DNA of 64,000 bases from an uncultured Alphaproteobacteria bacterium. Its GTDB lineage: Bacteria > Pseudomonadota > Alphaproteobacteria > Rs-D84. The first letter of the stretch is position 1; each line of letters starts with the position of its first letter. Location: positions 207,809 through 271,808 of the forward strand of contig CAMWON010000001.1 in assembly GCA_947175875.1 (NCBI GenBank), in the 5' to 3' direction. The notes beneath the pieces were generated by a model, which ran no database searches, had not been told where the DNA came from, and saw only the letters and a program-made list of their open reading frames with translations. Of the stretch, positions 55,442 through 59,515 are shown piece after piece. The position numbers and the translations under genes were made by a program.

Positions 55442-55470
55442 GAATCCGGCGTTTTGCCGGATTTTTTTAT
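55442..55470. terminator. Intrinsic terminator between gap and the DGR reverse transcriptase
   Basis: ATCCGGC / GCCGGAT stem with a five-base loop and a T7 run; the RT gene ends inside the T-run. Confidence 0.85.
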
Positions 55471-56492
55471 ATCAGGTATTTATTGTAAAAACCTATAAAT
55501 GCACTGTCGCCGGTCTGGCGGACATCCGCCCGAAATTTCCGTCGCAGATTATTGCATCGCGCCCATTTCATCCAACCGCTGAACGCGGCCAGCTGGCTGC
55601 GCGTATGCGGGGAAATCTCTCTGAACCGTATCAGTGCGCGCATTTTACGTTTCATCTTTTTTGCGCCAGCCTTGGTTAAAACGACATAGTCCTTAAAGTG
55701 GCGGTATCCGATAAAATTTATCCCCGCATCGGTCGGCTTTATAAACGATTTGGAAAACACCAGGTCCAGTTCCGTCCCCAGATATTCGCGCAATGTCGTC
55801 CGCCACCCGCGCAGCGTTTCCATATCGTCCCCAAACAGACAGAAATCGTCACAGTATCGTATATAGTCGCGCACATGCATTTTATGCTTAACAAACATGT
55901 CCAAATCGTTCAGATACAGGTTGCCCATCCATTGACTGGTTAAGTTTCCGATTGGCATCCCGCGCTCTGTATCGACCGAGCGCACAATATCCTCCAGCAC
56001 TTTCAGCAATCGTCGGTCCGTGATTTTGCGCCGCAGGATTTTCATCATGATTTCGTGATTGATGCTGGGATAGAATTTTCGTATATCGCACTGCAGCACG
56101 TATTTGTTCCGGCGCAGCATCTGCATGCATCTGTGTGACGCCACGTGCAGGCCGCGTCCCGGAATACACGCGTATGAATCGCTGATAAACATTTTCTGCC
56201 AAATTGGCGCCAATATGTTCATCAGCGCATGGTGCACGATATGGTCCGGATACAGCGGCAGCATGAATACGTTTCGTTTCTTTGGCTCGTATACGGTAAA
56301 GACGCGATATCGGCCCGTCTTATACGTGCCGTTTTCCAGCATTTCGCGCAGCCGCGCCAGTTTTCGCGGCCGGCGCCGCATAAAGTTTTTTGCAGACAGT
56401 TTGGATTTTTTCCCGCGCAGGGCATGGTCGGCGGCAATTTCGAAATTTTCCGCGGATATAAATTCGTCCCACAAATGCTTGTGTGTTTTCAT
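55467..56492 (-). CDS. Diversity-generating retroelement reverse transcriptase
   Basis: 341 residues from ATG 56492, which overlaps the stop of the accessory gene by four bases (ATGA). RT fingers/palm motifs are visible: motif 2-like VYEPKKRNVFMLPLYPDHIVHHALM, CDIRKFYPSI (residues 135-144) with the first catalytic Asp, IGNLTSQWMGNLYLNDLD, and YCDDF (213-217) for the catalytic pair. The SQ within IGxxxSQ marks DGR enzymes rather than group II intron RTs, and no maturase or endonuclease domain follows. It should copy the adjacent template-repeat RNA with errors at adenines. Confidence 0.92.
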   Translation of the reverse strand: MKTHKHLWDEFISAENFEIAADHALRGKKSKLSAKNFMRRRPRKLARLREMLENGTYKTGRYRVFTVYEPKKRNVFMLPLYPDHIVHHALMNILAPIWQKMFISDSYACIPGRGLHVASHRCMQMLRRNKYVLQCDIRKFYPSINHEIMMKILRRKITDRRLLKVLEDIVRSVDTERGMPIGNLTSQWMGNLYLNDLDMFVKHKMHVRDYIRYCDDFCLFGDDMETLRGWRTTLREYLGTELDLVFSKSFIKPTDAGINFIGYRHFKDYVVLTKAGAKKMKRKMRALIRFREISPHTRSQLAAFSGWMKWARCNNLRRKFRADVRQTGDSAFIGFYNKYLI

Positions 56493-56815
56493 GAAAAGGA
56501 ATAATACTTGTCGATTTTTACAATCGTCGCACAAAAGGGTATGTTTTCTTTTGCGGATTGAATCTGGTCGATTAAGACGCTGCTGCCGGTAAACACGACG
56601 CAGACCTTGTCGTCCAAAAGAAATTGTATCTGCAGACAGTCGGTTCCGTTTCGTTTTTTACTGCCCGATATTCTGAAATCGGTAATTGTAATTTCGCGGT
56701 TCAACAGGTCGTTCATAAATTTTTTATCCCCCGGCATGGGCAGTTTATCGCGTGCAAATACGGAAAATTTCGGGCACTGTGACCGGTCAAGTTTTTTTAT
56801 ATCGTCGATTGTCAT
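56489..56815 (-). CDS. Small protein translationally coupled to the DGR reverse transcriptase
   Basis: 108 residues. It occupies the position of the DGR accessory gene, between TR and RT, and overlaps the RT start (ATGA). Unlike the four-helix Avd protein it appears mainly beta-structured (ITITDFRISGSKKRNGTDCLQIQFLLDDKVCVVFTG) with a C-terminal FCATIVKIDKYYSF, reminiscent of small phage nucleic-acid-binding proteins, though not proven. HRDC and Avd motifs are absent. It may replace Avd in binding the RNA or the RT. ggaaac lies upstream of ATG 56815. Confidence 0.7.
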   Translation of the reverse strand: MTIDDIKKLDRSQCPKFSVFARDKLPMPGDKKFMNDLLNREITITDFRISGSKKRNGTDCLQIQFLLDDKVCVVFTGSSVLIDQIQSAKENIPFCATIVKIDKYYSFS

Positions 56816-57073
56816 ATTTGTTTCCTTTTGTTAAAGACAATCAAACATTCGGACGTTCGCCGGGTAAAGTGGCAGCTACTGGCCCGAATGTTTCCTGCGT
56901 TATTTGTTCGGAGAATGTGTCGCCACATTCTGCCGGGATATGCCGCCCCGCCTTTGATAAGGAAGGCATACAAACAGACGTTTTTTTGCGTCTGAAAAGT
57001 GTCGTTCGCACTTTGTCCTGCAGGTTAGCCAAACTTTATTTCCTTGCGTAATAAAGTTACCATTCCCCAAGGA
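56816..57073 (-). ncRNA. Structured spacer between template repeat and accessory gene (DGR RNA, 3' part)
   Basis: No protein frame is convincing here. Four exact inverted repeats are visible: AACTTTATT/AATAAAGTT (57032-57058), CAGACG/CGTCTG (56975-56994), AGAATGTG/CACATTCT with a four-base loop (56912-56931), and AAACATTCGG/CCGAATGTTT (56843-56893, 10 bp, enclosing 31 nt). In the Bordetella-phage DGR, the RNA downstream of TR (Sp) is essential for cDNA priming; by position this is the equivalent. Confidence 0.65.
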
Positions 57074-57199
57074 GCCGACCGACCCGAACACGCCCGCGCG
57101 GAAGCCGGAGTTGTTCCGAACGTTGTTACCGCAGTTGTTCGCGCAGTTCGACCTGCAATCGGCAACCGAGCCGTTGGCGTTCTGGAACACCCAACGCGA
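57074..57199 (-). repeat. DGR template repeat (TR)
   Basis: 126 bp matching the variable repeat at 57390-57515 with 8 mismatches. Read on the coding (minus) strand, all 8 mismatched positions are adenines in TR: one in a CAG codon and seven in AAC codons. TR is rich in AAC/CAG codons at these sites, typical of templates designed for adenine mutagenesis (AAC can become 15 other residues' codons but not a stop). It lies between the VP gene and the accessory/RT genes and is not in a gene. Confidence 0.95.
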
Positions 57200-57248
57200 A
57201 ATCCGCCATAACGGACCTGAACTGTCATCGTAACGGCGACACACCCCA

Positions 57249-57363
57249 TTCCCGGATTCGCCCGGGAATTTTCAAAAAATTTCGGCCTGCGGCGCTTACC
57301 CCCGGGGGCGGGGTCGCCGCCCCCGAACCCCCACCCAGGCAACGGCCTATGCTGACGCATAGG
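57249..57363. other. Hairpins between VR and TR (candidate IMH-associated structures)
   Basis: Three perfect inverted repeats: CCTATGC/GCATAGG with a four-base loop (57346-57363), 26 bp beyond the VR end; CGGGGGCGG/CCGCCCCCG (57303-57325), 9-bp stem; TTCCCGG/CCGGGAA (57249-57268). In other DGRs a short hairpin/cruciform just downstream of VR assists target recognition; the first matches this position and geometry. Confidence 0.55.
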
Positions 57364-57383
57364 CAACGCCGCATACCGATTTA

Positions 57384-57836
57384 TCAATTGCCGACCGACC
57401 CGAACACGCCCGCGCGGAAGCCGGAGTTGTTCCGAACGTTGCTACCGCAGTAGCGCGCGCAGTTCGACCTGCAATCGGCAACCGAGCCGGCGGCGCTCAG
57501 GAACACCCAACGCGAGTTTGCAGGGTGGGTCATCTGGCACCAGCAATATCTGCCGGTTCTTTCACCGCCGGTGGCAATTTCGCCGTTTGAATCACGCAAT
57601 TCTTCAACCGCGGTGTTTGATGAACCGCTGGTATCGACGCATGTGGCAATTCCCCAAACTGTTCCGTATGGAAATGTTGCCGACCATTCAAACAAATCCG
57701 TATTATAAGAGTGGTTCGTGCCCCCGATTATCGGGTCCAGCACGATGGCCAGTGTATCGTCCGTGGCACACATTGTGGTGGCCCCGGCCGACGCACAGAA
57801 CATTGCAATTAAAACACTCAGTATTACTTTCTTCAT
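57384..57836 (-). CDS. DGR variable protein (secreted, Cys-rich)
   Basis: 150 residues from ATG 57836 (ggggg upstream). Signal peptide to about ASAGA (residue 19). The mature protein has Cys23, 66, 98, 100, 122, 126 and 130, including CWC. The VR encodes residues 108-149, which is the C-terminus. Compared with the TR-encoded version, residues 113, 114, 116, 128, 129 and 132 are changed (Q/N to L, S, A, R, Y, S), all through A-to-other changes. It should be exported, with the variable surface at its C-terminal end. Its fold is not obviously the C-type lectin seen in classical DGR proteins. Confidence 0.9.
   Translation of the reverse strand: MKKVILSVLIAMFCASAGATTMCATDDTLAIVLDPIIGGTNHSYNTDLFEWSATFPYGTVWGIATCVDTSGSSNTAVEELRDSNGEIATGGERTGRYCWCQMTHPANSRWVFLSAAGSVADCRSNCARYCGSNVRNNSGFRAGVFGSVGN
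57390..57515 (-). repeat. DGR variable repeat (VR)
   Basis: 126 bp at the 3' end of the variable-protein gene, ending 3 bp before the stop codon. 118 of 126 positions match TR (57074-57199); the 8 differences all lie opposite TR adenines on the coding strand. Outside the 126 bp the two sequences diverge at once at both ends, so the boundaries are sharp. Confidence 0.95.
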
Positions 57837-57857: not shown

Positions 57858-58343
57858 TTACCAAATCGCCAGATATATGCCGTTCGTGCGAAAGTTGTTG
57901 GTGTTGTCGCGTATCGCCGCCGCGCACGCGCTGGTGCATCCCGCGTCACATGCATCCTCGCTGTCGAATGCGCCGTAATATACCCACCACGACGTCACCG
58001 GGCCGCTTAAACTGCACCAGCACTGCGTCCCCACGTCCGCGCTGCTGGCGCGCAGATATACGTTTGCGTCGCCGGATTTGGCGGCGGTGTCGGCCGTGTT
58101 GGTCGTTATCTCGTTGCATGTGGCCGTCCCGGTCAGCGTTCTTTGCGACGCGTCATTCGGCACCAGGTCATAACCAAAGCGCAACGTAAAAGTCTTTTCC
58201 GCCGTGTCGTATGACGAAGATGTCGGATTCTCGCTTTTCTTTATCGTGAACACCGCCGTGCGACTGTGAATGCATGTTGATGCCGCATACGACCCGGCGC
58301 AAAACAATGTTAATAATACGGATAATGATATTGCTTTTTTCAT
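57858..58343 (-). CDS. Paralogue of the DGR variable protein, no detectable VR
   Basis: 161 residues from ATG 58343 (gggggaa upstream). Signal peptide to about SYA-A. It shares the whole layout of the variable protein: an early single Cys, ATC, CWC near residue 112, then WWVY, three spaced cysteines (ACDAGCTSAC), and FRTNGIY near the end. DNA similarity to TR is too low to be a VR, so it is either never diversified or diversified by a template elsewhere. It lies 21 bp before the variable-protein gene on the same strand, in the same operon. Confidence 0.8.
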   Translation of the reverse strand: MKKAISLSVLLTLFCAGSYAASTCIHSRTAVFTIKKSENPTSSSYDTAEKTFTLRFGYDLVPNDASQRTLTGTATCNEITTNTADTAAKSGDANVYLRASSADVGTQCWCSLSGPVTSWWVYYGAFDSEDACDAGCTSACAAAIRDNTNNFRTNGIYLAIW

Positions 58344-58361
58344 ATGTTCCCCCATTCCCCT

Positions 58362-59321
58362 TTAATCAGATATGTGATACGTGCCTGCGGCGGACTTTAT
58401 GTTCATAACGCCGCGCGCCGCACCTGGTAAAAAGTTGATATAACACACACCGTCCGACGTCTTGATGTTCAGCGCCGGCGTCGTCAATTTTTCCGCCCAC
58501 AACGGCCATGTCTGGCCGCCGCTCGCGCGCAGCTCTGTCTTGCCGTGCGGGCACAGTTCCGCGCATGTCCCCAGCCCCGTGTATTTCAGGCCATCCTCGC
58601 ACAGAATTGCGCACATGTTATTCTTTGACTGGCCCGCCGTGCAATCCGCGTTCAGCCAATATGTCGCATATCCCGTGGCGCATACCGCGTTTTCCGGCGT
58701 GGTCAGCGTCGCCGCATCAACTGTTATGTCGTGAAAGTTTTCCGGACAGTCGCCGCGCGTTAGCGCCGTGCACTCGCCGTCGGACAGGTACTGGCCCGCC
58801 CCGCACAGTTTTGCGCCGTATGCGACCAAAACACCGTTGTATATGGGTGTTAAAAATTCCGGTAATTCATATGCGTTATAAGAGTTCATACATTCCTGCA
58901 ACGCGGCCGACGGCGATGAAAATGTCGATTGGCCGATTGGTGTCTTGTATGACCCCTCCGGACAGCGCCCGGGGGACTTTTTCTGGCATGTGCCGGCGGC
59001 AAATTGCTCGTCTGCGGCGCACAATGTCGCGCCGTATTTAACCAGAACGCCGCTGTAAATCGCATGAAACATATCCGGCAGCTGCTGCTTGTCATATGCG
59101 TTCATGCACTGGTTCTTTAATGTCATTGCCGAATAAGTTGCCGATGCGATGACCGTTTCATAATATCCGGACGGACATTCGTTTTGCACCTTGTCGATGC
59201 ATGTGCCATTGCTCATCTGTTGGCCGTCTTCGCACAACCGTGCGCCGAACCGCACCACGGTGGCGGCATTCGCCGTCCCCTGGATCACAGCAATCGCCAA
59301 TAAAAAAATTACGCCTCTCAT
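58362..59321 (-). CDS. Secreted protein with three Cys-rich repeats, first gene of the DGR operon
   Basis: 319 residues from ATG 59321 (aggga upstream), where a signal peptide begins (to NAA). About residues 23-225 are three units of ~70 residues, each with VxYGAxLC, then a short CxxxxxxxCP, then a stretch ending PExFLTPIYNGV-like. A Cys-rich tail follows. No enzymatic motif. Probably a surface or extracellular protein, perhaps displaying or anchoring the two small proteins encoded behind it. A structured leader RNA (59342-59515) precedes it. Confidence 0.75.
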   Translation of the reverse strand: MRGVIFLLAIAVIQGTANAATVVRFGARLCEDGQQMSNGTCIDKVQNECPSGYYETVIASATYSAMTLKNQCMNAYDKQQLPDMFHAIYSGVLVKYGATLCAADEQFAAGTCQKKSPGRCPEGSYKTPIGQSTFSSPSAALQECMNSYNAYELPEFLTPIYNGVLVAYGAKLCGAGQYLSDGECTALTRGDCPENFHDITVDAATLTTPENAVCATGYATYWLNADCTAGQSKNNMCAILCEDGLKYTGLGTCAELCPHGKTELRASGGQTWPLWAEKLTTPALNIKTSDGVCYINFLPGAARGVMNIKSAAGTYHISD

Positions 59322-59341
59322 ACTTTTCCCTACGTGACGAT

Positions 59342-59515
59342 AAAAGTAAACCACCGGATACATTGGGTGGTTGGAGGTTCGAAACTATATAAGAAGCAAT
59401 AGCGGGTTTATTCAATATATTCACCGCCCTCCAACCAACGGTTGGAGATGTTTATTGTCCACCACGGACACTTCTTATACAGGTTCCGACGCCTGGCCGG
59501 GCAACACGCCTCGGC
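59342..59515 (-). ncRNA. Structured RNA of the repeated family, copy E (leader of the DGR operon)
   Basis: On the minus strand: GCCG/CGGC hairpin; P1 CAGG/CCTG with loop cgtcggaa, pairing to TTTCG (one G-U); P2 TATAAGAAG with CTTCTTATA (9 bp); GTCC/GGAC hairpin then aataaac; P4 CTCCAACC/GGTTGGAG; P5 GCGG/CCGC-type helix around gaatatattgaata. GGTTGGAGG can also pair with the downstream CCTCCAACC, which overlaps the final AACCACC/GGTGGTT hairpin. This is the same order as copies A1-D. It ends 21 bp before the first operon gene. Confidence 0.78.

Follow-up and report, generated by a model that had tools for sequence, protein, structure and literature searches.

A bacterial chromosomal diversity-generating retroelement with a non-Avd accessory protein of predicted OB fold

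The DNA analyzed here, hereafter the window, is a 64,000-nucleotide stretch of contig CAMWON010000001.1 (assembly GCA_947175875.1) from an uncultured alphaproteobacterium, the genome of which comprises 953 kb in 9 contigs and is 95% complete. The minus strand of the window carries a diversity-generating retroelement (DGR), the parts of which are listed in Table 1. Read 5' to 3' on that strand, the order is an exported cysteine-rich protein, a paralogue of the target, the target gene ending in the variable repeat (VR), a hairpin, a GC-rich hairpin, the template repeat (TR), a structured spacer RNA (R1), an accessory gene (ACC), and the reverse transcriptase (RT). The first-pass annotation, made from the letters of the sequence, had described a complete DGR, and an RT of the DGR type, an exported target with a C-terminal VR, and a hairpin after the VR are indeed all present. 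It had recognized TR, VR, RT, and target but had overlooked ACC, the spacer RNA, the hairpin 3' of VR, and the paralogue; the non-Avd accessory gene and the spacer RNA are the least ordinary parts of the cassette. TR and VR are the sole two copies of the repeat in the whole 953-kb genome, which also holds R1 in one copy. The third exported cysteine-rich protein is a possible partner of the target.

Table 1 Features of the DGR cassette and its neighbors, in positions of the window
Feature	Position	Strand	Remarks
Template repeat (TR)	57074-57199	minus	126 nt; from repeat finder
Variable repeat (VR)	57390-57515	minus	From repeat finder; ~42 C-terminal codons of the target gene
Target gene, 150 aa	57384-57836	minus	Predicted signal peptide and six-cysteine domain
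Hairpin/cruciform 3' of VR	57345-57364	minus	8-bp stem, loop GTCA
Second GC-rich hairpin, VR-TR interval	57303-57325	minus	Near-identical in sibling species
Structured spacer RNA (model R1, 44 base pairs)	56838-57030	minus	Interval between TR and accessory gene; covariation
Accessory gene (ACC), 108 aa	56489-56815	minus	Predicted OB fold; 13-bp overlap with RT start
DGR-type reverse transcriptase (RT)	55467-56501	minus	IGNLTSQ, YCDD
Target paralogue without detectable VR	57858-58355	minus	31% identity to target, same cysteines; kept in siblings
Third exported cysteine-rich protein	58362-59363	minus	Adjoins target in many relatives

The repeat finder returned the TR/VR pair exactly as first described, with 94% identity over its length. 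On the coding (minus) strand, eight of the 126 positions differ between the two repeats, with adenine as the TR base at all eight. As had been claimed, every one of these mismatches alters a codon, the residues affected being 113, 114, 116, 128, 129, and 132 when counted from the ATG at 57836 (the same residues span 118-137 when numbered from the upstream ATG). Nine of the 12 adenine-bearing TR codons are AAC, a motif prevalent among natural DGR templates (PMC12875486). The 3'-most ~36 nt of TR contain no adenine and provide the GC-rich, IMH-like 3' end expected of a DGR, and VR, as expected, occupies the 3'-terminal part of a protein-coding gene, the target.

The RT was found where the first-pass annotation had placed it, and its IGNLTSQ and YCDD sequences conform to the IGNxxSQ-like and YxDD motifs of DGR-type RTs. 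It matched the PHROG reverse-transcriptase family with an E value of 4e-104, and its top match in the Protein Data Bank (PDB) and closest solved structure was BPP-1 bRT (8ub7, E 3e-48), the best group II intron RT having an E value of 2e-19. Among the 183 genomes of the family, the RT occurs in 56 and the accessory gene in 51. At one locus (L073, G012:C28) the RT is read in two frames, through a frameshift or an assembly error, in a cassette that is otherwise complete. The hairpin 25 nt past the VR end has the stem GCCTATGC / GCATAGGC, and its counterparts in sibling species, spaced similarly from VR, have the stems GCCATACGCC/GGCGTATGGC (G014) and GCCATGTGCC/GGCACATGGC (G153); the stem letters thus vary among siblings, with complementarity kept. 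BPP-1 requires such a hairpin, with a GRNA loop (PMC3240598), a consensus from which the loop GTCA deviates. The second GC-rich hairpin (CGGGGGCGGCGACCCCGCCCCCG) is possibly a 5' boundary or a terminator ahead of the TR RNA.

VR differences between relatives at non-adenine positions, named in the first-pass annotation as the observation that would speak against a DGR, were looked for in six sibling species, and the element withstood the comparison. At columns with adenine in both TRs, the VRs differed at 11/21, 11/18, 8/14, 14/21, 13/20, and 9/15 columns in the six comparisons, and at non-adenine columns identical between the TRs they differed at 1/97, 0/97, 0/97, 2/96, 0/89, and 0/86. Where the TRs had themselves acquired non-adenine substitutions, these were mirrored in the VR of the same genome in 8/8, 8/8, 6/6, 9/9, 14/14, and 15/16 cases (60/61 in total), and few of the VR differences fell at non-adenine columns (e.g., 2 of 15 for G153). 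Since each VR follows its own TR at these substitutions, the VRs show concerted evolution through TR-to-VR copying after the species split. Such copying also leads to low synonymous divergence in VR, for which pS was 0.11-0.35 versus 0.53-0.83 in the rest of the target gene, and the non-synonymous divergence of VR was high. In two near-identical relatives (G015 and G041, with RTs 99.7% identical), TR was the same over 148 nt and VR differed at 20 sites, 19 of them at TR adenines. A constant TR with a VR varying at adenines was therefore seen both between species and in one near-identical pair of relatives. The pN/pS values were 0.07-0.12 for the accessory gene and 0.10-0.35 for the RT, and both genes are under purifying selection.

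The description of the DGR as active or recently active thus holds, given that sibling VRs diverge at TR adenines and copy their own TRs and that the G015/G041 pair varies as it does. The DGR is real and most likely functional, and it is presumably active in this strain at present. That it has instead decayed, leaving the TR/VR differences as the relic of an element that no longer moves, is very unlikely: the sequence is known from metagenome-assembled genome (MAG) data alone and some relatives carry broken RTs (frameshifted in G012, a fragment in G003), but the RT in the window is intact and under purifying selection, and copying from TR to VR has taken place since the divergence from every sibling tested.

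R1 is formed by 44 pairs, and 90.8% of the cells in these pairs were paired, compared with 25-48% when the structure was slid. Compensatory changes were found in 19 pairs altered on both sides, and none of 500 shuffles was as good. The covariance model detected R1 in 45 of the 66 family loci and, in a shorter form, at the RT start in about 12 viral accessory-bearing DGRs (E < 1e-3); it gave no match in BPP-1, BalMu-1, or two crAss-like DGRs, and the R1 region had no match in Rfam. The BPP-1 spacer serves both to recruit RT-Avd and to prime cDNA synthesis (PMC12875486). R1 corresponds to this spacer in position, and by this analogy it is likely the region for RT binding and priming. One locus (L105, G106:C3) has kept the accessory gene and R1 but lacks an RT in the surrounding 8 kb.

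No Pfam or NCBIfam family was found for the 108-aa ACC, including no Pfam match for an HRDC or MutS-like (MSL) domain. PHROG 19665, the function of which is not assigned, was matched by 27 of the 56 members of the ACC family (best E 6e-7) and is thus the nearest existing family, with no function or DGR link attached to it. A first structure model, built from nine close sequences, reached a pLDDT of 47 and was discarded. The AlphaFold2 model built from 56 sequences had a pLDDT of 89 and a strand-strand-strand-helix-strand-strand (bbb-a-bb) arrangement, which is the topology of an OB fold, and ACC is accordingly predicted to be an OB-fold protein. Searches with this model gave weak matches to RPA/SSB-type OB proteins in the PDB (best E 0.055) and, with Foldseek against BFVD, matches to phage ssDNA-binding proteins and to RT-annotated viral proteins, the latter counting as a lead only. 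The OB model and the ssDNA-binding matches together make it likely that ACC binds nucleic acid. A fused accessory domain in the crAss-like LMMB RT was considered and dropped at an hhalign probability of 0.2%. ACC has evolved far more slowly than its RT, with 87-91% versus 62-66% identity to G136, G153, and G014 (loci L051, L052, and L053).

The linkage of ACC to DGRs extends to viruses. Of the 61 IMG/VR contigs encoding an ACC homologue, 55 carry an adjoining DGR-type RT in the same orientation, and adenine-only TR/VR pairs were found in 17 of 62 viral loci; homologues also lie next to the RT in two annotated viruses, the archaeal ANMV-1 and vir525 of Methanosarcinales. In 398 genomes spread over the phylum, the ACC profile found a match only in the window's own genome, and a plasmid search found nothing. 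ACC may already be among the genes listed by Wu et al. 2018, and one DGR-linked protein proposed in reference 12 of PMC10053308, without Pfam or CDD attribution, could be the ACC family.

No Avd, the mark of an Avd-type DGR, was detected in the window. An ordinary Avd-type DGR, in which ACC would be a diverged Avd and thus a four-helix bundle, is suggested by the position of ACC near the RT, by its Avd-like size, and by the naming of an ANMV-1 ORF as Avd and of other archaeal ORFs as Avd-like by pI and mass (Paul et al. 2015, PMC4372165). However, true Avds match Pfam bAvd strongly (7e-36 for BPP-1 and 6e-42 for BalMu-1, run as positive controls in the same scan), whereas ACC, the viral homologues scanned, and the 56-member family had no bAvd match at the thresholds used. 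In addition, the predicted fold is rich in β-strands rather than composed of four helices, queries with the BPP-1 and BalMu-1 Avds gave no match in the window, and the ACC profile gave none in the BPP-1 and BalMu-1 loci. Together, these observations leave a diverged Avd with little probability, and an OB-fold protein distinct from Avd is the preferred reading of ACC.

The cassette had also been taken to be chromosomal rather than phage-borne, which agrees with its position between gap and the tRNA-Asp/META-lipoprotein genes in a neighborhood kept in sibling species. There, the flanks consist of miaA and gap on one side and of META lipoprotein, tRNA/rRNA methyltransferase, OMPs, and lpxI on the other. 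In one sibling (L053, G014:C1:28000-45000), the entire cassette is inverted in place between conserved flanks (gap/miaA; META lipoprotein to lpxI). This inversion and the occurrence of ACC and RNA relatives on IMG/VR contigs might suggest that the DGR belongs to, and acts for, a prophage or other mobile element. We regard this as highly improbable because the chromosomal neighbors are unchanged in siblings, no phage gene was recognized among the neighbors checked, and the target, which carries a signal peptide, does not resemble a tail protein.

The target had been described as secreted and cysteine-rich, which fits its signal peptide and six invariant cysteines; its domain layout matches that of the neighboring paralogue, and it is presumably located at the surface with its cysteines in disulfides. 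No relative of the target domain was found in Pfam, NCBIfam, the PDB, or viral contigs or by hhalign; annotated VR regions have been reported to be systematically C-type-lectin folds (Roux et al. 2021, PMC8144416). Target-like six-cysteine domains occur in 144 of the 183 family genomes, including genomes without the RT. In some of the family genomes, each of ~0.9 Mb, the domain is strongly amplified, with a copy number of ~20 or above (e.g., G067, G006, G024, and G082), and ORFs of ~4100 aa with several six-cysteine domains were seen in G079:C2 and G051:C11. In G067, the local TR is matched by at least four domain copies located on other contigs, the differences being biased toward adenines (P 3e-6 to 1e-10), which indicates that multi-target use occurs; the window genome has one VR only. 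A 677-aa exported protein of G089 (L062) carries two VRs, both served by one TR.

Adenine specificity was also evident when the TR/VR pairs of relatives were pooled, with 285 of 298 mismatches at TR adenines over 24 pairs that had been prefiltered for bias. Because of this prefiltering, long repeats close to the RTs of relatives were also surveyed without a filter. One template base prevailed in 18 of the 28 pairs, and in each case it was A (or T when read from the opposite strand) and never C or G. Any repeat pair shows some similarity, but a simple tandem duplication or gene conversion whose adenine bias arose by chance is already refuted by these two surveys and by the probability of all eight mismatches of the window pair falling on adenine (P = 1.6e-7, with 21 A in the 126 nt of TR).

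The reading that we prefer, with a probability of roughly 0.87, is a vertically kept chromosomal DGR with an OB-fold protein in Avd's place, working as follows. TR would be transcribed together with its 3' structured spacer RNA, and the RT would bind this RNA and synthesize cDNA with errors, inserting random bases wherever the template has an adenine. With help from the hairpin that follows VR, this cDNA would then take the place of VR at the target gene's 3' end. In this way, ~12 C-terminal residues of the target would be re-randomized and its scaffold restored from TR. The co-encoded OB-fold protein would occupy the place of Avd, most likely binding either the spacer RNA or the cDNA in single-stranded form and supporting cDNA synthesis or retrohoming, and the target probably sits at the cell surface, where it would bind ligands as a variable protein.

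Avd is essential in the only well-studied DGR system, and, to our knowledge, the way in which mutagenized cDNA enters VR is unsolved. A protein predicted to bind single strands through an OB fold in Avd's place, accompanied by a conserved RNA, would be a natural comparison for the role required of the accessory, and the family of DGRs with an OB accessory would offer a second system to reconstitute. Furthermore, the retention of a costly diversification machine by a lineage with ~1-Mb genomes implies that variability of an exported protein is strongly selected.

Compared with BPP-1 (mtd-avd-TR-brt), the cassette shares the adenine-specific transfer from TR to VR, an RT with 35% identity, a VR at the target 3' end, a hairpin 3' of VR, and a structured spacer downstream of TR. 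It differs in having a predicted OB-fold protein rather than Avd and a spacer model, R1, that was not detected in BPP-1, and its target is a bacterial chromosomal exported protein with an unrecognized fold, whereas that of BPP-1 is a tail fiber. ANMV-1 (Paul et al. 2015) and Caudoviricetes sp. vir525 resemble it in the accessory region: an ACC homologue adjoins the RT (39% and 37% identity, respectively), and an R1-like RNA lies directly upstream of the RT, with an E value of 9e-5 in vir525 but only 0.07 in ANMV-1. However, the order in these viruses is RT-accessory instead of accessory-RT, their targets are in the viral tail region, and their accessory gene was deposited as hypothetical. The chromosomal DGRs of Treponema denticola and Legionella are likewise cellular and have exported or lipoprotein targets, and the several remote VRs per genome of Treponema have a parallel in relatives of the window genome; the Treponema accessory is, by contrast, HRDC (PMC4891356) and not a predicted OB-fold protein. 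The DGR itself is of a known kind, and what is new is the combination of the OB-fold accessory, the covarying spacer RNA, and the unrecognized target domain. It is fairly probable that DGRs with an OB-fold accessory and their own spacer RNA instead of Avd form a separate lineage, distributed over viruses (including archaeal ones) and the chromosomes of reduced-genome alphaproteobacteria. In the latter, it would diversify a secreted, lineage-specific domain with six cysteines, of which a 0.9-Mb genome can hold up to 20 copies or more, several of these being remote VRs in at least one relative.
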